Assembly: GCF_023006325.1 (NCBI RefSeq) | Contig: NZ_JAINDF010000001.1 | Location: 550,863 to 614,862, forward strand | Reading direction: 5' to 3' | Length of the DNA: 64,000 bases | DNA from: Kordiimonas marina | GTDB lineage: Bacteria; Pseudomonadota; Alphaproteobacteria; Sphingomonadales; Kordiimonadaceae | Shown here: one piece after another, positions 50,485-60,902 of the stretch | Numbering within the stretch: position 1 is the stretch's first letter | Layout of the letters: every line of letters starts with the position of its first letter | The notes under the pieces: generated by a model | Told to the model about the DNA's origin: nothing | Seen by the model: only the letters and a program-made list of their open reading frames with translations | Databases searched by the model: none | Program-made: the position numbers and the translations under genes

Positions 50485-52365
50485 TCAGAAATACTGATAG
50501 CCGAGGATATTCCAGAAATAATAGAACCAGACCAGAAACAAGGCGGACGCCGTGACGAGCGTATAGTGCAGCTTCCGCCTGACACCCCATTCACGGCTGC
50601 GCCACACACGCACAGCCACAAAGGCCTGCAGGAGCGAGCTGAGAGATGCCAGAATGGGCACGGTCAGCAGATAGCCCAGGTACACCGGCAGACGGGCGGA
50701 GATATGGCTGCCATCGACCGCCATCATCAGCCCCGCCAGCAACCAGAACAACAGGTGCAGCACAGACGTTGCCGTTGAGACACGAATGGCCCGCCGTTCG
50801 AACACAGGCTCCGCCTTGTAAACCCGCCTCTTATAGATCGCCGCCAACAGAACGGTCACCAGCAAGAAGAGCGACAGGCCTAGCCACGGGAAATTGAAGG
50901 AAGCGCTGTAATAGAAGGGCGACCGGCCCCATGTCAGGAACGGATAGTTGGCCATATGCAGGGTGACGGCTTTACCGGTGCCATCCGTTTCGAAGAACAG
51001 GCGGAATTTCCCGCCCACTTCGTGAAAGAGATTATGGTCGACCTCGACAAACTGCCGGTCCCGGCCGAGGCCCGACACCAGCAGGTGATTGTCGTCCGTG
51101 GCACTCACCTTCACCTGTGAAAGCAGGCCCAGGACCTTCTCAATAGTACTGAAGTTGGAACGCCACATGAAATAGCTGCCAACATACGATCCGGCCCTCG
51201 CGCTAAAGTCCGCGGGCGCCTTCAGCGGCGCTTCCTTCACCGGGAAATAATAGTCATAGAATTCCCGCACGAACTGGCTTCTGGCCTGCCGGCCATCCAC
51301 CTTGTTGAAGGAGATGAAGATCCCGAGGTTGTGAGTGAAGTCCAGCACCAGGTTGGTATGGAAATTATCGGTATCGCCACCATGGCCGATCAGCCGGAAA
51401 CCGTTTTCGTCTTCCTGGTAGAAGCCGTAGGCCATCCCCGGCAGCCGCTTGTCGACACCGAACAGGCGGCTGTGCATCAGCTTCGCCGTTTCAGGCTTCA
51501 GGATACCGGCGCCGTCCTGCAAATGGGCCAGCATGAATTTCGCCATATCATCCGCGGTGGAGGACATGGAACCCGCAGGCGCAAAACTGCTGATATATTC
51601 AAACCCCTGCGCCTTGAAGACACCCTCTTCCCGCGCGTACCCCGAGGCCACATCAGCCGACAGCGGGGCGAGGATAGGCTCAACAAAGGTCGAATGGGTC
51701 ATGCCCAAGGGCTTGTAGATATGGGCCGCGACATAATCGTCAAACGGCATCCCGCTGATATTTTCGACAATCAGGCCCGCGAGCGCGGCGCCATAGTTCG
51801 AATAGGCCGACAGTTTCCCCGGCGGCAGAATCCGTTCCGGCATATATTTGGCCATAGCCTTCCTGAGCGGCATGACCTGATCCTGGCCCGCCGCGATCAG
51901 ATAGCCGAGGCCCCCATCCTCGAACCCCGCCGAATGGGACAGAATATCCCGCATGGTGATGGGGCGGTCAAACGTGTCGGGGATCTGGAACGTCTTCAGA
52001 TATTTGTTGACGTTGGCATCCAGGTCCAGCTTGCCCTCTTCATAGAGCTGCATGACCGCCGTCCAGGTGAAGAGCTTGGAGGTCGAGCCGATGCGGAACA
52101 GGGTACTGTCCGGCCGAACGTGCGCGCCCTCGGCCACCCGGGCATAACCGTAGCCCTTTTCCAGGATAACCTTGCCGTCCTTGACGATCGACACGGTCGC
52201 GCCGGGAATGTCCAGCGCCTCCAGCTGCGCCCGGACGACACCATCGACAAAGGTTTCAAGGGCTGCGTGATCATCCAGGTTGGGTGTCTCGGCGTTTGCG
52301 CCCCTTGGGCCTGAAAGCGATACCGCGGCCAAAAGCGAACAAACCAGAGCCAATATCTTATGCAC
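50485..52365 (-). CDS. membrane-anchored serine hydrolase (beta-lactamase/D,D-peptidase family), copy 2
   Basis: 626-aa paralogue of the protein at 39730-41637. GTG start at 52365 with GGAG 7 bases upstream and signal peptide VHKILALVCS...GANA. Catalytic S94-T-S-K97, then Y-S-N in L-S-A-Y-S-N-Y-G-A-A-L, and the C-terminal multi-helix membrane module ending F-Y-Y-F-W-N-I-L-G-Y-Q-Y-F. The catalytic domain faces the periplasm. It lies between the TonB receptor and the D-aminoacylase-like genes, consistent with trimming imported D-amino-acid-containing peptides or acylated substrates. Confidence 0.88.
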   Translation of the reverse strand: MHKILALVCSLLAAVSLSGPRGANAETPNLDDHAALETFVDGVVRAQLEALDIPGATVSIVKDGKVILEKGYGYARVAEGAHVRPDSTLFRIGSTSKLFTWTAVMQLYEEGKLDLDANVNKYLKTFQIPDTFDRPITMRDILSHSAGFEDGGLGYLIAAGQDQVMPLRKAMAKYMPERILPPGKLSAYSNYGAALAGLIVENISGMPFDDYVAAHIYKPLGMTHSTFVEPILAPLSADVASGYAREEGVFKAQGFEYISSFAPAGSMSSTADDMAKFMLAHLQDGAGILKPETAKLMHSRLFGVDKRLPGMAYGFYQEDENGFRLIGHGGDTDNFHTNLVLDFTHNLGIFISFNKVDGRQARSQFVREFYDYYFPVKEAPLKAPADFSARAGSYVGSYFMWRSNFSTIEKVLGLLSQVKVSATDDNHLLVSGLGRDRQFVEVDHNLFHEVGGKFRLFFETDGTGKAVTLHMANYPFLTWGRSPFYYSASFNFPWLGLSLFLLVTVLLAAIYKRRVYKAEPVFERRAIRVSTATSVLHLLFWLLAGLMMAVDGSHISARLPVYLGYLLTVPILASLSSLLQAFVAVRVWRSREWGVRRKLHYTLVTASALFLVWFYYFWNILGYQYF

Positions 52366-52392
52366 GGAAGGTCTCCATAAAAGGAAGAAAAC

Positions 52393-52414
52393 TCGGGCCG
52401 GCGAACCGGCCCGA
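52393..52414 (-). terminator. intercistronic hairpin with UUCG loop between TonB receptor and hydrolase genes
   Basis: TCGGGCCGG (52393-52401) pairs perfectly with CCGGCCCGA (52406-52414); on the minus strand the loop is TTCG and TTTTC follows the stem. It could be a partial terminator or an mRNA stabiliser that raises receptor over hydrolase expression. Confidence 0.6.
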
Positions 52415-52449
52415 AACCACTGACTGTCACAGACTATCAAACCCTGAGG

Positions 52450-54648
52450 TTAGAACCGGGTTTTGACAGACACACCGAATGTCCGCGGGCGGCTTGTCTG
52501 GATACGGACATCGCCCATGAAACGGTTGAACAGGTTGACCGGACGCTCATCCCAGAGGTTGTCGACGAAGAGGTCTATTTCATAGTTACCCATCATCACC
52601 CCGGCCCGGACGTTGCCCATGGTATAGGCTGGTTGCGCGTCCGCCGCAGCGACCCCGCCGGTGCCGGTTGCAGTCGCAAAGCCGTTCCGGGACGCGCCGA
52701 CATGCTGGACACTGCCTTGAACGAAGGCATCCACACTGTCCGTCAGCGCGAAGCTGTAGCGGGCAAGCGCTGCCAGGTTCACATCCGGCACACCCGGGAT
52801 ATTGTCGCCCTTCTTGCCATCACCAGGGAGCGGCTGGTCTTCTTCCAATTGCGCATTGGTGTAGGACCCGGACAGGGAGATATCGAGCCCTTCCATCGGC
52901 CGCAGGGTCATCTCGGCTTCAACACCTTTACTGCTGGCCTTGCCCGCATTAGCGGTGAAGGAGAAGCCGTCCGAACGCAGGACAGTCACCTGAATGTTCG
53001 ACCAGTCCACATAGAAAGCGGCAAGGTTCAGGGTCATGCGGCCGTCGAGTAAAGTGCTCTTCGCGCCAACCTCGTAGCTCCACAGACTGTCGGAATCATA
53101 GGACGTCGGTGACGGCTCACCCGTATCGGGGTCAGGCGGGTTACCCTGCCCGGTCGTTCCGCCCTGGCGGAAGCCTTTTGCCGCGGTGGTATAGAGCATG
53201 AAGTCTTTAGACGCCTGGTACGACAGCAGGAATTTGGGTGTAACACCATTTTCCGCCACGCTCGTATTCACAGTCGTCGCCGGACCGACCAGAAGACCGG
53301 AGGTGTAGCTGGAATCTTCAACCTTGATGTCGAACCAGCGCAGCCCAACCGTGGCCTTCAATTTGTCGGTCAGGTCATAGGACGCCTCACCGAACAGGGC
53401 GACCTGCCGGGTGGTTGTCGGGATAGAAGCCTCAACCAGGGTAAGGGGGTCTGTCGACAGCCCAGGGAAAAACGCCGCTTCCGCAAGCTGGTTGAAGGTC
53501 CCCTTGCCGTCCTTATAGAAGACACCGGCGATCCACTGGAACCGACCATCATTCTGCGACACGAGGCGGGTTTCATGCACCCAGGAGGTATCAGGCTCGG
53601 TATTTTCCAGATAGGCCGGAATACCACCCAGAAGCGGGGACAGGTCACGCAGGTTCGCGAATTGCCTGTCGAAATAGGACGTTGACGAATTCAGGTTCGC
53701 CCAACCTAGGTCCAAGTCCAACGTCAGGTTATAGGCGGTGAATTTGTCGTTGGTATATTCCAGATACTTCTGGTTCTGCTTCAGGTCCCCGATGGCCGGG
53801 TCATAGTGCCCGATGGCATCGTATTTGGAGTCCTGGTGAATAATATTGAAGGTCAGCATCAGGCTGTCACTGGCCTTCAGCCGGGCAGCAAACCGGCCAC
53901 CCCAGGTTTCCTCCTTGTTCACATTGTTGAGACCCAGGGTCACGTTATCCACATACCCGTCAAAGTTCCGGTAATAGCCGACAGCGCGAACCGCCAGCTT
54001 GTCATTGACGATCGGGATATTGACCATACCGTTGAGGGCATAGTTGCTGCCGCCCTTATGGGTGCTGGAATAGGTTCCCTGCACATCGGCGGCAAAGTTT
54101 TCCAGATCGGGCTTGTTGGTGATGATGCGGATGGTCCCGCCCATCGAACCTTCCCCGTAAAGGGTACCCTGCGGGCCCCTCAGGACCTCAATCCGTTCGA
54201 TATCGAATATTTTCAGGTCCGGGTTCCTGGACGCAGCCCCAACCGGCACCTCATCAAAATAAACACCGGTAGTTTGGGTTTCGGCATTCACACCGCTCGA
54301 GATACCCCGAATGACGATTTTCTTGCGGCTCGGCCCCCGGTCAACAAAGGACACAGACGGCAGGCTGCGGGCATAATCCACGAAGTTGTCCGCCCCCATA
54401 TTGTCGAGCGTCTTCCCGGTCAAAGCCGAAATGGACATGGCCGTATCCTGCAGCGACACAGCCCGTTTGGTTGCGGTGACAACGATTTCTTCCAGGGCAA
54501 CTTCAGTCCCCGGCTTCTTCGCATCCCCCGCCTTTACCGCGGCACCATCTGCGGCGGCATATGCAGCCCCCACAGGCATTATCATCGCACTCGCCAGCGC
54601 AGCACAGCAAGCCGAGGACAGATATTTAATCCTGAACAAGTTTGACAA
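52450..54648 (-). CDS. TonB-dependent outer-membrane receptor (second)
   Basis: 732-aa receptor. It starts at a TTG (54648) with GGAGAG 5 bases upstream; the signal peptide is SNLFRIKYLSSACCAALASA to AAYA. The TonB box region is E-E-I-V-V-T-A-T-K-R, the plug carries V-E-V-L-R-G-P-Q-G-T-L-Y-G-E-G-S-M-G-G, and the barrel ends in V-S-V-K-T-R-F with a terminal Phe. It heads an operon with a periplasmic serine hydrolase and a D-aminoacylase-like enzyme, so its cargo may be a D-amino-acid-containing oligopeptide or muropeptide. That is inferred from context only. Confidence 0.92.
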   Translation of the reverse strand: MSNLFRIKYLSSACCAALASAMIMPVGAAYAAADGAAVKAGDAKKPGTEVALEEIVVTATKRAVSLQDTAMSISALTGKTLDNMGADNFVDYARSLPSVSFVDRGPSRKKIVIRGISSGVNAETQTTGVYFDEVPVGAASRNPDLKIFDIERIEVLRGPQGTLYGEGSMGGTIRIITNKPDLENFAADVQGTYSSTHKGGSNYALNGMVNIPIVNDKLAVRAVGYYRNFDGYVDNVTLGLNNVNKEETWGGRFAARLKASDSLMLTFNIIHQDSKYDAIGHYDPAIGDLKQNQKYLEYTNDKFTAYNLTLDLDLGWANLNSSTSYFDRQFANLRDLSPLLGGIPAYLENTEPDTSWVHETRLVSQNDGRFQWIAGVFYKDGKGTFNQLAEAAFFPGLSTDPLTLVEASIPTTTRQVALFGEASYDLTDKLKATVGLRWFDIKVEDSSYTSGLLVGPATTVNTSVAENGVTPKFLLSYQASKDFMLYTTAAKGFRQGGTTGQGNPPDPDTGEPSPTSYDSDSLWSYEVGAKSTLLDGRMTLNLAAFYVDWSNIQVTVLRSDGFSFTANAGKASSKGVEAEMTLRPMEGLDISLSGSYTNAQLEEDQPLPGDGKKGDNIPGVPDVNLAALARYSFALTDSVDAFVQGSVQHVGASRNGFATATGTGGVAAADAQPAYTMGNVRAGVMMGNYEIDLFVDNLWDERPVNLFNRFMGDVRIQTSRPRTFGVSVKTRF

Positions 54649-54974
54649 AGCGTCTCTCCCACATTTTTTGTTCCTCCACGAACTTCAGGGATTGGCTCTT
54701 GACCTCGGCTCAAGCAGTCAAACATTGCGCCAATATTTCCTTTAAGAAAATATAATTCCTATTATAATAAGTGTCAATTCATATTACCTGCATACAGGCG
54801 CTCACACAGGCGGGAGGGAATTCGGCTTATATATCGGTTAAATACCTATAAAAGAACGAATATTTTCCATTAATAACAACCATAGGTACTCTATTCGCAG
54901 CCCTTGACGCCCCATCCTGTGCAGACGGAATATAATTCCTATCCGACATACGTCCCAAACCTTGAGGAAATGAC
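54649..54974. promoter_or_regulatory. divergent promoter region with a 14-bp direct repeat
   Basis: AATATAATTCCTAT occurs identically at 54749-54762 and 54929-54942, one copy before each divergent gene (TonB receptor leftwards, DUF819 protein rightwards). The second is part of the small palindrome GGAATATAATTCC. The region is AT-rich. It is likely a shared operator. No other gene is seen in these 326 bases. Confidence 0.5.
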
Positions 54975-56120
54975 ATGAAACCAGAGGCCCTGATCTCACC
55001 CCACAATGACATGGCGCTATGGACGGCGATGTTTGTCCTTGTCGCTTTCGCTTTCTGGGCTGAGAGGACCCGGCTCGGGAAAAGCGTCTCCGGTATCATG
55101 TTGGCCATCGCCGTCTCCATGACGCTTTCCAACCTGAACATCCTCCCCAAATCGGCGCCGGCGTATGATGTTGTGTGGACATACCTCATCCCGCTTTCCA
55201 TTCCGCTTTTGCTGTTCAAGGCTGACCTTCGCCGGATCATCCCGGAGACGAAAGGCATGTTGCTCGCCTTTCTTTTCGGGGCGCTGGGCACCACGGTGGG
55301 CGCGGTCATCGGGGTCCATGTTCTGCCTTTGGGGGAAAGTGCGCCATCCCTGGCCGGGATTTTCAGCGCCACCTATATCGGCGGTAGCATGAATATGGCC
55401 GCAGTGGGCGCCGCCCTCGGGGTGCACAAGGACCTGCTGACAGCCAGTGTCGCGGCGGACAATTTTGTCGGCGTCCTATACCTGGCGCTTCTGGCCATGA
55501 TGCCGATGTTCACCTTCCTCAGGCGCTGGATACCGTCCGACATTATCGAACGCGCGGAAAAAAGCGCGGATGCCGAAGCCGAGCACAGCGTGGAACACAG
55601 CGCCCTGAACCCCTTCCATATCGCGCTCGCGCTTTCGCTCAGCTTCGCCATCTGTACGGCCAGCAACGCGCTCTCGGCCTACCTGGGGATCGGTACCTAT
55701 AATATCCTATTTGTCACCGCCTTCTCGGTGCTGATCGCCAACGCCATCCCCCAGCATATGAAGAAACTGGAGGGCGACTATGAAACCGGCCTCATCTTCA
55801 TGTATCTGTTTTTCATCATCGTGGGCGCAGGCGCGGATATCGCCGCCATGTTCGAGAATGCGCTGATTATTGCGGCCTTCTGCGCGATCATCCTGTTTTT
55901 CCACATGGTCACCATCTTCGGGGCCGGATGGTTTTTCAAGCTGGACCTGGCGGAAATCATCATCGCCTCGAACGCCTGCTCGTCCGGGCCGGCCAGCGCC
56001 GTCGCACTGGCCGCAGGGAAATCCTGGAAGGAGCTGATCACACCCGCCGTCATGCTGGGTGTCTTCGGCTATGTCATCGCCAACTTCATCGGCATCAGCT
56101 TGGCAGGGCTTCTCTCCTGA
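54975..56120 (+). CDS. DUF819 family membrane protein
   Basis: 381-aa protein with about ten membrane helices, matching DUF819 (YjcL-like) in size and in S-A-T-Y-I-G-G-S-M-N-M-A-A-V-G and A-S-N-A-C-S-S-G-P-A-S-A-V-A-L-A-A-G. The re-entrant G-G-S-M-N and C-S-S-G-P motifs suggest an inverted-repeat transporter. GAGGAAATGAC precedes the ATG. It is divergent from the TonB receptor operon, so it may carry the same substrate or its hydrolysis product across the inner membrane. The family's function is not established. Confidence 0.85.
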   Translation: MKPEALISPHNDMALWTAMFVLVAFAFWAERTRLGKSVSGIMLAIAVSMTLSNLNILPKSAPAYDVVWTYLIPLSIPLLLFKADLRRIIPETKGMLLAFLFGALGTTVGAVIGVHVLPLGESAPSLAGIFSATYIGGSMNMAAVGAALGVHKDLLTASVAADNFVGVLYLALLAMMPMFTFLRRWIPSDIIERAEKSADAEAEHSVEHSALNPFHIALALSLSFAICTASNALSAYLGIGTYNILFVTAFSVLIANAIPQHMKKLEGDYETGLIFMYLFFIIVGAGADIAAMFENALIIAAFCAIILFFHMVTIFGAGWFFKLDLAEIIIASNACSSGPASAVALAAGKSWKELITPAVMLGVFGYVIANFIGISLAGLLS

Positions 56121-56138: not shown

Positions 56139-58352
56139 TCAGTTCGCGGGTATGTCAGGAAAATCCCTGTTCTGAATGGGATAGTCCTGCCATCCGTCGA
56201 AATCGAAATGCCACCATTCCCACGGATAGATTTTAAAGTCATTTTCCTCCATGGCCCGGCGCAGCAGGTCCTTGTGCCAGCGCTCAAGGTCGCTGCCGCC
56301 GATATATTGCGGCCAGGAGCGGGTCCATAGCTCGTCATACCGGCCGGGCATGGTGATAACCTTGCCGCTTTTCAGGTCGAAAAGCGTCAGGTCCACCGCA
56401 GCACCCCGGTTATGGCGGGAGCCGTCAGGCGGGTAGGCAACATAGATTTTCGAGTCCTGCGGCGTGGCATCCCAGAAGATTTTGGTGACATACCACGGCC
56501 GGTATCCGTCATGGATCAACAGGCCATAGCCCCGCTTCCTAAGCCAATCGTCGACCCTGCGGAGGGCAAGGGCCGCCGGCCGTTCCATAAAGGCGCGCGC
56601 CTGCGGATACACCGGCGTGCCGATGAAGTTGTTGGCCGTGGCATAGCGGATATCCAGCTTCAAGCGCGGGTCGATCTTGATAAGCTCAACCAGATCCGGG
56701 GTTTTGGTGCCACCCTCACCCTTCGGCGGCACGGCCTTCAACGCGCCCGTGCGCAGGCTGTCATTGATCCGGACACCGGCGCGGACTTTCTCCTGCACTT
56801 CGGCACCAAAATCATGCCGGGCATAGGCCCGGCCAAGGAACGCGACCTTCACCCCCTGCCCGGAAGCATCCGTGCTGAAGATCAGGTTTTCCCCGGCATA
56901 TACATTGCCTTCAGGCAGGCGGTAGACATCGGTAGCAATCCGTGTGAGCGGCACATAGTAGCGCCCGTCAAGGCGGGCATAGGCCTTGCCGTCCCACTGA
57001 TAGAGGCGGATGAAATCCTTCTGCGTGCCATATTCACCCATCAGCCCAGCAAGCTCGGCACTGGGTGCCTTCGGCTTCTGCCAAACCGCACGCTGATATG
57101 TCTTGCCGTTCAGGCGCACCCAGCGGCCTTCTGGGTCGATCACCAGGTCGGGCGAAAAATGACGGACATCATCCAGATACCAGGCACCGTTCTTCTGCCG
57201 CACCTCCGCCGTAACCGACGCCGCCTCCAGGTATAATTTGTCCCAAAGCGAGCGCAGGATCAGACCTTCGCCGCCGTCCTGATAATAGCCAGCGAGCTTC
57301 TCCTTGATAGCCGCAGGTACCAGGTCAGGGACGATATAGTCCGGCAGCGGCGCGCCCTTCGCGGCGGCCTGCATCAGCTTTTCACCGTAGCGTGCCAGAT
57401 GCGCCACCACTGGCGTCGCCTGGGAGCCACCTAAAACCGCCACACCGATTTTCCGGACCGGATCAAACCGGACTGCAGCGCTGTGGCCATAAACCGCGCC
57501 GCCATAGCTGACCGAACCGGCGGCGCCGACATCCCGCCGATGGATACCCGGCTTGGTCACGTCATTCCATGCAGGAAGGGCCCACAAGACGGCAAGCGCC
57601 TTAGCCCCGAGAAGCTGGCATTTTCCGGCCTCACCGCGCCCGGACAGCAGCGCATCCATAAAGCGGCCCAGGTCCTTTGCCGAACTATAAGCCCCCTCGC
57701 CAGCCACTTGGTTCACATCACCGCGGGGAGCGGTAACCGGGTCACCGTCATAGGACGTATACTGGCCGTCCACAATGGGACGCGGCAGCTGCGCCCCACG
57801 GAAGCCGCTGTGGTTCATCTGCGCGCAACCAAAAATACGGGCCTTGGCAATCGCCTCATAGGGTTGCCCTTCGACTGCCTCCAACACTTTGGCCAGCACC
57901 CGTGCCGTTGAGGCCGACTGCACCTGATGTGCCATAAGCTGCCTGAGGGTGACGGGAGTCTTTCCAGCTGTGCCAGCCGCAAAACCCGGCAGGTATTTTC
58001 GGACAGGCATGTCCAGATCCAACTTATTTTGTTCCGCCAGTTGCAGGACCAGAACATCCACGAACAATTCGCTGACCGCGCCAAGCCTATAGGCACTGTC
58101 GGCCGAGGCAGGCCTCTTTCCGGCGATATCCTCGTGACCCGCGCTGCCCTGCCAAACGCCCCCCCGGCCTGCGACCAGAACCGCCGACAAGGCCGGAATT
58201 TTCTTGGCCGTCTGCTCGGTTTTCAGGGCGTGGGAGAAAAGCTGTGCCGCGGCGGCCCACTTTGGCGGCGGCGCGGCGGCGCCAGCCTGCCCCCCCAGGA
58301 AAGCCGCAGACATCAGACACGCCAAAGCACCCCACCGCGTTTTCAACAACAT
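56139..58352 (-). CDS. fusion of a degenerate penicillin-binding domain with a VanX-type D-Ala-D-Ala dipeptidase
   Basis: 737-aa exported protein; ATG at 58352 with GGAAGG upstream, signal peptide MLLKTRWGAL...AGAAA. Residues ~30-330 resemble a serine hydrolase/beta-lactamase domain, but the S-x-x-K motif reads A92-V-S-E95 and the Y-x-N Tyr is not seen, so it is probably catalytically dead. A middle domain resembles the lipocalin-like region of such proteins. The C-terminal ~200 residues form a VanX/DdpX peptidase M15 domain with intact zinc and catalytic residues: D-G-Y-R-P, S-R-H647-N-R-G-A-A-V-D654, and E712-W-W-H715. It is downstream of dsdA by 55 bases and would release D-Ala from D-Ala-D-Ala. 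Confidence 0.88.
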   Translation of the reverse strand: MLLKTRWGALACLMSAAFLGGQAGAAAPPPKWAAAAQLFSHALKTEQTAKKIPALSAVLVAGRGGVWQGSAGHEDIAGKRPASADSAYRLGAVSELFVDVLVLQLAEQNKLDLDMPVRKYLPGFAAGTAGKTPVTLRQLMAHQVQSASTARVLAKVLEAVEGQPYEAIAKARIFGCAQMNHSGFRGAQLPRPIVDGQYTSYDGDPVTAPRGDVNQVAGEGAYSSAKDLGRFMDALLSGRGEAGKCQLLGAKALAVLWALPAWNDVTKPGIHRRDVGAAGSVSYGGAVYGHSAAVRFDPVRKIGVAVLGGSQATPVVAHLARYGEKLMQAAAKGAPLPDYIVPDLVPAAIKEKLAGYYQDGGEGLILRSLWDKLYLEAASVTAEVRQKNGAWYLDDVRHFSPDLVIDPEGRWVRLNGKTYQRAVWQKPKAPSAELAGLMGEYGTQKDFIRLYQWDGKAYARLDGRYYVPLTRIATDVYRLPEGNVYAGENLIFSTDASGQGVKVAFLGRAYARHDFGAEVQEKVRAGVRINDSLRTGALKAVPPKGEGGTKTPDLVELIKIDPRLKLDIRYATANNFIGTPVYPQARAFMERPAALALRRVDDWLRKRGYGLLIHDGYRPWYVTKIFWDATPQDSKIYVAYPPDGSRHNRGAAVDLTLFDLKSGKVITMPGRYDELWTRSWPQYIGGSDLERWHKDLLRRAMEENDFKIYPWEWWHFDFDGWQDYPIQNRDFPDIPAN

Positions 58353-58407
58353 AGCTTTTCCTTCCATGGGGACGCCCGGATCAGCTGCTTGACCGGGCTT
58401 CCCGACC

Positions 58408-59733
58408 TCAATTTTTCTGACGTCCAGTTCTTTTCCGGCGGGCTATGGCGCCTTCTCTGAAAAATGCTTCATAGTCCTGATCCGGCAGGAAACGCCCGCC
58501 GGTGGTCCAGATGACATGAACGGCGTCTGCCATAGGGCCCGCCAGGTCGTTGCAGATGCAATAAGCCCGTCCTGCCGCCGAGCCATAAAGATGAACTGGC
58601 CCAAACACACCCGCCGCCGCGGAGGGTTCGACACGAAGCCCTTCGGTCTCCTTCAGAAGGAACAATCCTTCCATCAAGCGTTCATCGCGGACCGTAAAAA
58701 TACCGGACAAAATCGGCCGCATCAGACCTGACGCCAGAACCGATGCCGTCCCCACCGCCAGGCCATCCGCCTCCGTGACATTATCGAGCCCATAGTCATA
58801 AACCGACACGGGGCCGCCTGTTTCCTTGATCATCTCAACCAACATGCAAGGCGATGCGACAGGCTCAGCAAAAAAGGGATGAGCATGACCACCGAACACC
58901 TGATGCGCGCCAAAGGCTATGCCCCCAGGCGCACCGCCTATCCCGCACGGCAGATAAAGAAATAGCGGCCGCGTCGCGCCGATCTCGATCCCCAGATCAC
59001 AGAGCTGTTCCTTCAGCTCGAGCGCTGCAACGCTGTAGCCCAGGAACAAAAGCCGGGAGCCTTCATCATCGACAAAATAGGTTTGTTCTTGGGCCTCGGC
59101 GCGGGAAGCTGCCTGCCGCACGGCAAAGGTATAGTCATCATCATATTCAAAAACGGTTGCGCCGCGCTCCCGCAAAAGCGCTTTCTTCCAGGCCTTGGCG
59201 TCCCGCGACATATGAACTTCAACCTGAAACCCGAGCGCGCGGCCAACGATGCCGACGCTGAGCCCCAGATTACCGGTACTACCAACCGCGATCACACGGT
59301 CGGCGAAAACCTTCTTCATTTCCGGGCTTAACAGCCGTTCAACAGGGTCTTCACGGGTCATATAGCCGTTCTGCACGGCCCAATCCCACGCATGGGAGAA
59401 AACTTCAAAGATTCCTCCCCGCGCCTTTATCGACCCCGCAACCGGAAGGTCATGGTCGGCTTTGACGAAAAGCTGACCCACGGCATCCGGGTCGTCAAAA
59501 AGCGCGTCCTGAAGGCGTGGCACGGGGATAAGCGCCGAGCGGACACCGCCGATGGCATCCAGGTCCGGGAACAGCTGGCGCAGGGCCGGGGTCATCTGCT
59601 TGAAACGGTCGCAGGCATCAACAAAGTCCGCTCGCGTCAGGGCAGCACCAGTCCTGTCGGAATCCGTTCCGTGCCGTGATGGGTTAAGCCAGAAGATTTC
59701 TTTATAGCTTTTTACGTCATCGGCGATCGCCAT
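58408..59733 (-). CDS. dsdA: D-serine ammonia-lyase
   Basis: 441-aa PLP-dependent enzyme that deaminates D-serine to pyruvate and ammonia in the cytoplasm. The PLP Lys is in A-G-S-I-K-A-R-G-G, the phosphate-binding loops are G-S-T-G-N-L-G-L-S and P-C-G-I-G-G-A-P-G-G; length and N-terminal W-L-N-P match DsdA. It is divergent from a LysR gene at 59919, the arrangement of dsdC-dsdA. The 185-base region between them holds a 12-bp inverted repeat. The VanX-fusion gene follows in the same operon. Confidence 0.93.
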   Translation of the reverse strand: MAIADDVKSYKEIFWLNPSRHGTDSDRTGAALTRADFVDACDRFKQMTPALRQLFPDLDAIGGVRSALIPVPRLQDALFDDPDAVGQLFVKADHDLPVAGSIKARGGIFEVFSHAWDWAVQNGYMTREDPVERLLSPEMKKVFADRVIAVGSTGNLGLSVGIVGRALGFQVEVHMSRDAKAWKKALLRERGATVFEYDDDYTFAVRQAASRAEAQEQTYFVDDEGSRLLFLGYSVAALELKEQLCDLGIEIGATRPLFLYLPCGIGGAPGGIAFGAHQVFGGHAHPFFAEPVASPCMLVEMIKETGGPVSVYDYGLDNVTEADGLAVGTASVLASGLMRPILSGIFTVRDERLMEGLFLLKETEGLRVEPSAAAGVFGPVHLYGSAAGRAYCICNDLAGPMADAVHVIWTTGGRFLPDQDYEAFFREGAIARRKRTGRQKN

Positions 59734-59918: not shown

Positions 59919-60902
59919 ATGCTTATATCTGGAAACACCATATCGCCCTACCTGATCGGCAACCTGTTCTTTTTTGATGTGGTCTGCCGGCACCTTTCCT
60001 TCAGTAGCGCTGCGGAAGAATTGAACGTTTCGCAGGCGGCCGTCAGCCAACGCATCCGCCAGCTTGAGGAACAGCTCGGACTCCCACTATTCCACCGGCA
60101 CGCACGCGGCGTCACCCTGACGAAGGCGGGGGCCAGCCTGCATAATGGAACCACGGATGGCTTCGGAGCGATTAGCAGCGCGGTCTCAAAATTGGCCGCT
60201 TCACAGACCAGGAATGATCTTGTCGTCAGTTGCCCGCCATCCCTGGCGATGGACTGGCTGATCCCAAGGCTGGATGACTTTTACGCCACGCACCCCGACA
60301 TCAAGCTGAAGATACTGGCGGAATACAAAGCGCCGAGCAGGGAAGATTTTCAGCATGGCGGCATTGACGTCGCCCTCCGGTACGAACCCCCGGTCCTGCA
60401 TCAGGGGCTCACCGCGGAGAATATCGCGGAAGAACAAATCGTTCCCGTCTGCACGCCCGCCTTCAAGCAGAAGCTTCAGCCGCGGAAAGATCTCGCAAAA
60501 GCCCTGGCCAAAGTCCCCCTACTACACGATGGGGAGGCCTGGGACGGCGCGCCAAATGATTATGAATGGGCAACCTGGCTGCGCCAGAACCATATCCGGG
60601 ATTTTGCCTGCCCTTACGAAAAATTCTTCAACCTGGCACAGCTTGCGGTCAAGGCCGCGCTTCAGGGACAGGGGGTTGCCATTGGCCGTGCGACCATCAT
60701 CCTGGACTATCTGATCAAGGGAGACTTGATCATGCTCGACAAGGCGCCTGTCGCCTCCGGCCTCTGGTATCGTTTCATTACCCCAGAAAGTGCGGAAGAA
60801 ACCGAGCAGGTGGCTAAATTCAAGTCCTGGTTCCGGGAAAACACCCAGTCCTCCTCGGAGGTGCTCAAGCAATTCCTTCAAACCGGCGCACCTGCCCCCT
60901 AG
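59919..60902 (+). CDS. LysR-family transcriptional regulator (GcvA/DsdC-like)
   Basis: 327-aa regulator. The N-terminal winged helix (residues ~12-72) has L-S-F-S-S-A-A-E-E-L-N-V-S-Q-A-A-V-S-Q-R-I-R-Q-L-E-E-Q-L-G, typical of the GcvA subgroup. The C-terminal periplasmic-binding-like domain senses the effector. It is divergent from dsdA, so D-serine is the likely inducer. No clear ribosome-binding site precedes the ATG at 59919, so the message may be leaderless or the start slightly different. Confidence 0.9.
   Translation: MLISGNTISPYLIGNLFFFDVVCRHLSFSSAAEELNVSQAAVSQRIRQLEEQLGLPLFHRHARGVTLTKAGASLHNGTTDGFGAISSAVSKLAASQTRNDLVVSCPPSLAMDWLIPRLDDFYATHPDIKLKILAEYKAPSREDFQHGGIDVALRYEPPVLHQGLTAENIAEEQIVPVCTPAFKQKLQPRKDLAKALAKVPLLHDGEAWDGAPNDYEWATWLRQNHIRDFACPYEKFFNLAQLAVKAALQGQGVAIGRATIILDYLIKGDLIMLDKAPVASGLWYRFITPESAEETEQVAKFKSWFRENTQSSSEVLKQFLQTGAPAP

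Follow-up and report, generated by a model that had tools for sequence, protein, structure and literature searches.

A fusion gene of Kordiimonas marina, located at 56139..58352 (-) of the 64,000-nucleotide stretch of DNA that was analysed (the window), joins an S12 (class C beta-lactamase-fold) domain to an M15 domain of the VanX/DdpX type, and its S12 half has lost the active site while the dipeptidase half has kept it. The encoded protein is likely a periplasmic VanX-type D,D-dipeptidase for the scavenging of D-amino acids, carrying a decayed, non-catalytic S12 domain as a passenger. The novelty is the dead state of the S12 domain and not the fusion itself.

Gene start and domain architecture

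The open frame of the fusion extends over 56139-58367 (-), comprising 742 codons with a first ATG at 58367. As the Shine-Dalgarno-like sequence GGAAGGA (58359-58365) is found directly upstream of the second ATG at 58352, the latter is the better and likely start. Residue numbers are nevertheless counted from the first ATG throughout, A97 and E100 corresponding to A92 and E95 from the second one. Scans for promoters and terminators gave results at chance level. A signal peptide, MLLKTRWGALACLMSAAFLGGQAGA-A (58275..58352, (-)), was predicted by eye from the sequence; the intact fusion relatives likewise begin with a signal-peptide-like sequence, and the K. marina protein is presumably periplasmic or secreted.

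Three further parts follow: the S12 domain (residues 51-316; 57420..58217, (-)), which matches PF00144 with E 6e-36 and 124.6 bits (Pfam cut-off 27), two beta-rich middle domains (residues 317-545; 56733..57419, (-)), recognised by predicted secondary structure and Foldseek, and the M15 domain of a VanX/DdpX-type D,D-dipeptidase (residues 557-726; 56190..56699, (-)), which matches PF01427 with E 1e-29 and 103.8 bits (Pfam cut-off 27). Together with the motif alignment described below, the Pfam matches bear out the original prediction, made from the letters of this DNA, of a dead penicillin-recognising-fold domain joined to a VanX-type dipeptidase. The Foldseek matches to the D-aminopeptidase 1ei5 and the Lip3 DL-peptidase 9sn1 run beyond the S12 core into the middle region. 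Both are three-domain S12 proteins in which beta-domains follow the S12 core, as in K. marina; they work as serine enzymes and have no M15 domain, whereas the K. marina S12 domain is dead and linked to one.

Loss of the S12 active site

The S12 half was compared with 83 fusion relatives, four from the same genus and 79 from a genome collection (L047 being the same record as L004). At the position of motif 1 (58068..58079, (-)), K. marina carries A97-V-S-E100 instead of S-x-x-K, Ser being present in 83 of 83 and Lys in 82 of 83 relatives, exactly as had been predicted for residues 92-95. The predicted absence of the Tyr of the second motif was found as well: Q150-S-A152 replaces Y-S-N, of which Tyr and Asn are each conserved in all 83 relatives. 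The loss of motif 3 had been overlooked; here Y288-G-G (57498..57506, (-)) takes the place of H-x-G, whose His is likewise present in 83/83. Furthermore, the domain is not of full length, as had been assumed, since a segment of about 41 residues separating motif 1 from motif 2 is missing when the protein is set against the same-genus fusions. The junction of this deletion (after H147) and the motif 2 position are located at 57912..57929 (-). The K. marina domain therefore matches the fold profile of the S12/class C beta-lactamases and carries none of the three catalytic motifs of its active members, and it is the sole S12-dead fusion among those compared. Since the three motifs are gone together and the fold is still recognised, a chance origin of the motif loss can be ruled out. 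Judged from the alignment, the S12 domain is catalytically dead. A fusion from Ignavibacteria (L088, 7962-10310) exhibits S-x-x-N instead of S-x-x-K and is otherwise intact.

It is highly improbable that the S12 domain retains activity by using a nucleophile or base at a new position, such as S99 or S228-x-x-K231. S99 is kept and S228-S-A-K231 is the sole other S-x-x-K string of the domain, but S99 is not at the nucleophile position, and Tyr, Asn and His are lost as well. The string S228-S-A-K231 was rejected as the true catalytic pair, as it occupies a non-equivalent site at which the relatives have no conserved Lys. The alignment with the relatives gave no catalytic Ser and Lys at another position, the observation that would have spoken against the original prediction. 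An assembly or sequencing artefact damaging an intact domain is even less credible. Only a single copy of the variant has been seen; against an artefact stand 20 substitutions at conserved S12 columns accompanied by an in-frame deletion with no frameshift, the clean M15 and neighbour genes, and a genome that is 100% complete and 0.08% contaminated.

The dipeptidase half

R623, H652, D659, E717 and H720 of the M15 domain are unchanged in K. marina and identical in 83 of 83 fusion relatives, in agreement with the predicted retention of all zinc and catalytic residues in the VanX part. The closest solved structure for the C-terminal part is VanX (1r44), to which the zinc ligands H652, D659 and H720 as well as the catalytic E717 and R623 align (aligned motifs DGYRP, SRHNRG..D and EWWH). 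The VIA-align list held S12 matches and VanX was not among them, so that the identification of the M15 domain is based on its sequence. On these grounds the M15 half is apparently competent as a VanX-type D,D-dipeptidase.

VanX and DdpX (M15D) share with it PF01427, the zinc ligands H, D and H and the catalytic E and R. They are, however, single-domain enzymes, whereas the K. marina protein is multi-domain and scores below both NCBIfam equivalog cut-offs (88.5 bits with 320 needed for VanX, 125.7 bits with 176 needed for DdpX). A signature, D-x-YRPWYVTK-x-FWDATP, is peculiar to the M15 subfamily of the fusions. The K. marina genome carries a second M15 gene (L001:1459-2100, contig C22), which is stand-alone and of the ordinary DdpX type; in the M15 tree its product is placed far from the fusion clade.

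Predicted fold and conservation of the S12 half

In the AF2 model of the K. marina protein the S12 core is present with a mean pLDDT of 88.4, weak stretches being found at about 131-150, 201-220 and 261-280; the predicted model of an intact relative is of similar quality (pLDDT 90.4). According to VIA-align, the modelled domain matches S12-fold structures with Z of about 28-33, including the D-amino-acid amidase 2efu and Lip3 9sn1. The K. marina model was built on the alignment of intact relatives and is thereby biased, so it is no proof that the domain folds.

Conservation was assessed over columns that are the same in at least 95% of the fusion relatives. In the S12 domain 30 of 62 such columns are altered or absent in K. 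marina (20 changed and 10 deleted), whereas the middle region differs in this way at 11 of 30 columns and the M15 domain at only 3 of 63. Moreover, the S12 identity falls 13.7 points below the expectation from the M15 identity, the relatives having a standard deviation of 2.4 and a minimum of -7.3. GC3 amounts to 0.746 in the M15 part and 0.671 in the S12 part of the gene. From the contrast in conservation we conclude that selection is maintaining the dipeptidase and has been relaxed in the S12 domain, as read from one long branch without a close relative. The S12 domain may have some role in structure or binding, as its fold is predicted with high confidence and K. marina keeps 32 of the 62 conserved positions.

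Distribution and phylogeny of the fusion family

The fusion architecture is widespread: the best 80 of 555 confirmed matches belong to Pseudomonadota, Planctomycetota, Acidobacteriota, Gemmatimonadota, Bacteroidota, Ignavibacteriota and others. With the same architecture in 83 relatives from several phyla, a one-off of K. marina was rejected, and the original prediction, whose author knew of no described fusion of this kind, is to be amended in this respect, although no published description of an S12-M15 fusion was found in the non-subscription literature searched. The fusions of Sphingomonadaceae, Planctomycetota, Acidobacteriota, Gemmatimonadota and Bacteroidota have the same order of parts and the same M15 residues as the K. 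marina copy, which also falls into their M15 clade. They differ from it in retaining S-x-x-K (82/83), Y-S-N and H-x-G, i.e. two intact active sites, and the segment of about 41 residues. In one member of Longimicrobiaceae (L097) the fusion match covers positions 3-741 of the query with no open frame above 550 aa, indicating a frameshift or an assembly error. A plasmid search returned no close relative of the K. marina fusion.

Besides the fusions, S12-less forms were identified, consisting of a signal peptide, one beta-domain and the M15 domain (~335-375 residues). They occur in 11 genomes of the same-order family Emcibacteraceae (L116-L126) and in L108, L179 and L180. With the K. marina protein they share the M15 subfamily and one beta-domain, but they have no S12 domain. 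In the M15 tree, the 11 Emcibacteraceae proteins are nested among the fusions and group with those of the same order (98/96). In the tree of beta-domain plus M15, L108, L179 and L180 form one 100/100 clade with the K. marina copy and intact sphingomonad fusions. The gene context of the S12-less sphingomonad forms, read as open reading frames, revealed nothing obvious. In five Emcibacteraceae-like loci (L116, L117, L119, L123 and L125) the S12-less M15 gene is directly followed by a GGDEF/EAL-like gene.

In the full-length tree the K. marina copy groups with sphingomonad fusions as well (SH-aLRT 99), its closest full-length relative being 43% identical. Its placement as sister of the S12-less trio gave an AU p of 0.16, and as sister of the intact sphingomonad fusions a support of 93/79. 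An origin from the same-genus fusions, three of the four of which were included, was rejected (AU p 0.0004), as was an origin from the Bacteroidota row L049 (AU p 0.0016), to which the M15-only tree had pointed. Because the grouping with the same-genus fusions is rejected, the probable history of the gene is acquisition from inside the order, or else its loss in other lineages. The simplest reading of these unrooted trees would be at least two complete losses of the S12 domain and one inactivation, that of K. marina; the opposite, a gain, is formally possible. In one clade, the S12 half of a two-enzyme fusion is thus intact, dead or absent, a fusion partway through losing one of its halves, and the VanX half has hardly changed, which marks the dipeptidase as the selected activity.

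The K. marina branch is very long (1.25 compared with a median of 0.21 in the tree of beta-domain plus M15, and 2.03 in the full-length tree). This length, the other M15 gene of the genome and the lower GC3 of the S12 part would suit a whole gene in decay, a pseudogene backed up by the stand-alone dipeptidase. We regard this as very unlikely, considering that 60 of 63 conserved M15 columns are kept, that 742 codons are free of stops (for the N-terminal 316 codons alone, the probability of this by chance is about 4e-5) and that the stand-alone M15 protein is very distant in the tree.

The dead S12 domain had been proposed to bind D-Ala-D-Ala ends and to deliver them to the dipeptidase. In this reading it would be a recognition module for D-Ala-D-Ala-ended or other D-peptides, feeding or regulating the M15 half, in line with the intact S12 fold predicted with good confidence, the conserved positions that are kept, and the finding that inactive serine-protease homologues in general can acquire new functions (PMC2605481). 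However, the cleft-forming motifs and the 41-residue segment are gone, constraint is relaxed throughout the domain, and sister forms exist without it. Since the M15 half is kept while relatives of the same clade have dropped the S12 domain wholly, the S12 half appears dispensable, which argues against a conserved bind-and-deliver role, and we consider a recognition module unlikely. Still somewhat less probable is a role of the S12 domain in sensing or binding D-peptides or beta-lactams without catalysis, by which it would gate or steer the dipeptidase joined to it. If true, this would make it a pseudo-penicillin-binding protein in control of an enzyme of the VanX type inside a D-serine operon.

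Gene neighbourhood and proposed function

A D-serine ammonia-lyase gene (dsdA; 58408..59733, (-)) is located 40-55 bp upstream of the fusion gene on the same strand and is a probable operon partner; it matches TIGR02035 with 455 bits (cut-off 368) and PRK02991 with 518 bits (cut-off 246). A divergent LysR regulator gene (59919..60902, (+)) encodes a DsdC/GcvA-like protein scoring below the cut-offs of both models. On the other side, a gene for a DUF819 transporter-like membrane protein (54975..56120, (+); PF05684, E 8e-75) is convergent with the fusion, and is accompanied by a TonB-dependent receptor gene identified by profile search (52450..54648, (-)) and by a separate S12 hydrolase gene (50485..52440, (-); PF00144, E 4e-66). 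The latter hydrolase has intact S-T-S-K, Y-S-N and H-G-G motifs and hydrophobic, membrane-like C-terminal segments. DsdA was not found in 19 congeners, and in the neighbourhoods checked neither DsdA nor DUF819 adjoins other fusions; consequently, the link to dsdA comes from one genome.

We propose that the ancestor was the widespread two-enzyme fusion of an S12 serine D-peptidase, beta-domains and an M15 dipeptidase. In the K. marina lineage the S12 domain would have lost Ser, Lys, Tyr, Asn and His together with the 41-residue active-site segment, and would persist as a passenger that separates the signal peptide from the functional dipeptidase and serves at most as a scaffold for folding or spacing. 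Dipeptides of D-amino acids are the probable substrates of the M15 half, which would cleave them in the periplasm. The D-Ser, and perhaps D-Thr, released in this way would be deaminated in the cytoplasm by the D-serine ammonia-lyase, a step that the DsdC-like LysR regulator may control, and both the TonB receptor and the DUF819 protein may take part in uptake (putative transport roles).

Gene neighbours elsewhere also support a handling of D-peptides or D-amino acids by the fusions. D-serine-dehydratase/D-threonine-aldolase-like genes (PF14031, matched by 4 of 74 scanned neighbours) adjoin intact fusions at L028:6039-7844, L029:6565-7848 and L032:6307-7626, and in L028 and L029 they directly precede the fusion, on its strand and at a distance of 33-40 bp. 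An intact fusion is directly preceded by a gene for a DgcA-like N-acetyl-D-Glu racemase/epimerase in L066 (375 bits, cut-off 400) and by an amidohydrolase gene in L051, and in L103 a DgcN-like gene (459.5 bits, cut-off 480) lies two genes upstream of the fusion. Three sphingomonads have a gene for a class A beta-lactamase directly upstream of the intact fusion, with an overlap in two of them (L023:6701-7855, L024:6776-7867, L033:6838-7872; NF033103, 223-226 bits, cut-off 200). A widespread family of secreted VanX-type dipeptidases thus recurs beside D-amino-acid genes and is better read as nutrient scavengers than as vancomycin-resistance determinants.

Most of the DUF819 loci checked in other members of the order also have TonB and S12 genes nearby. 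A cluster that combines DUF819 with a TonB receptor and one or more S12 hydrolases (50485-56120 in K. marina) recurs in L158, L160, L161 and L163-L168, some loci having only part of it. Outside the order, an adjacent M15-DUF819 gene pair occurs in 75 N. meningitidis genomes (PMC12671195).
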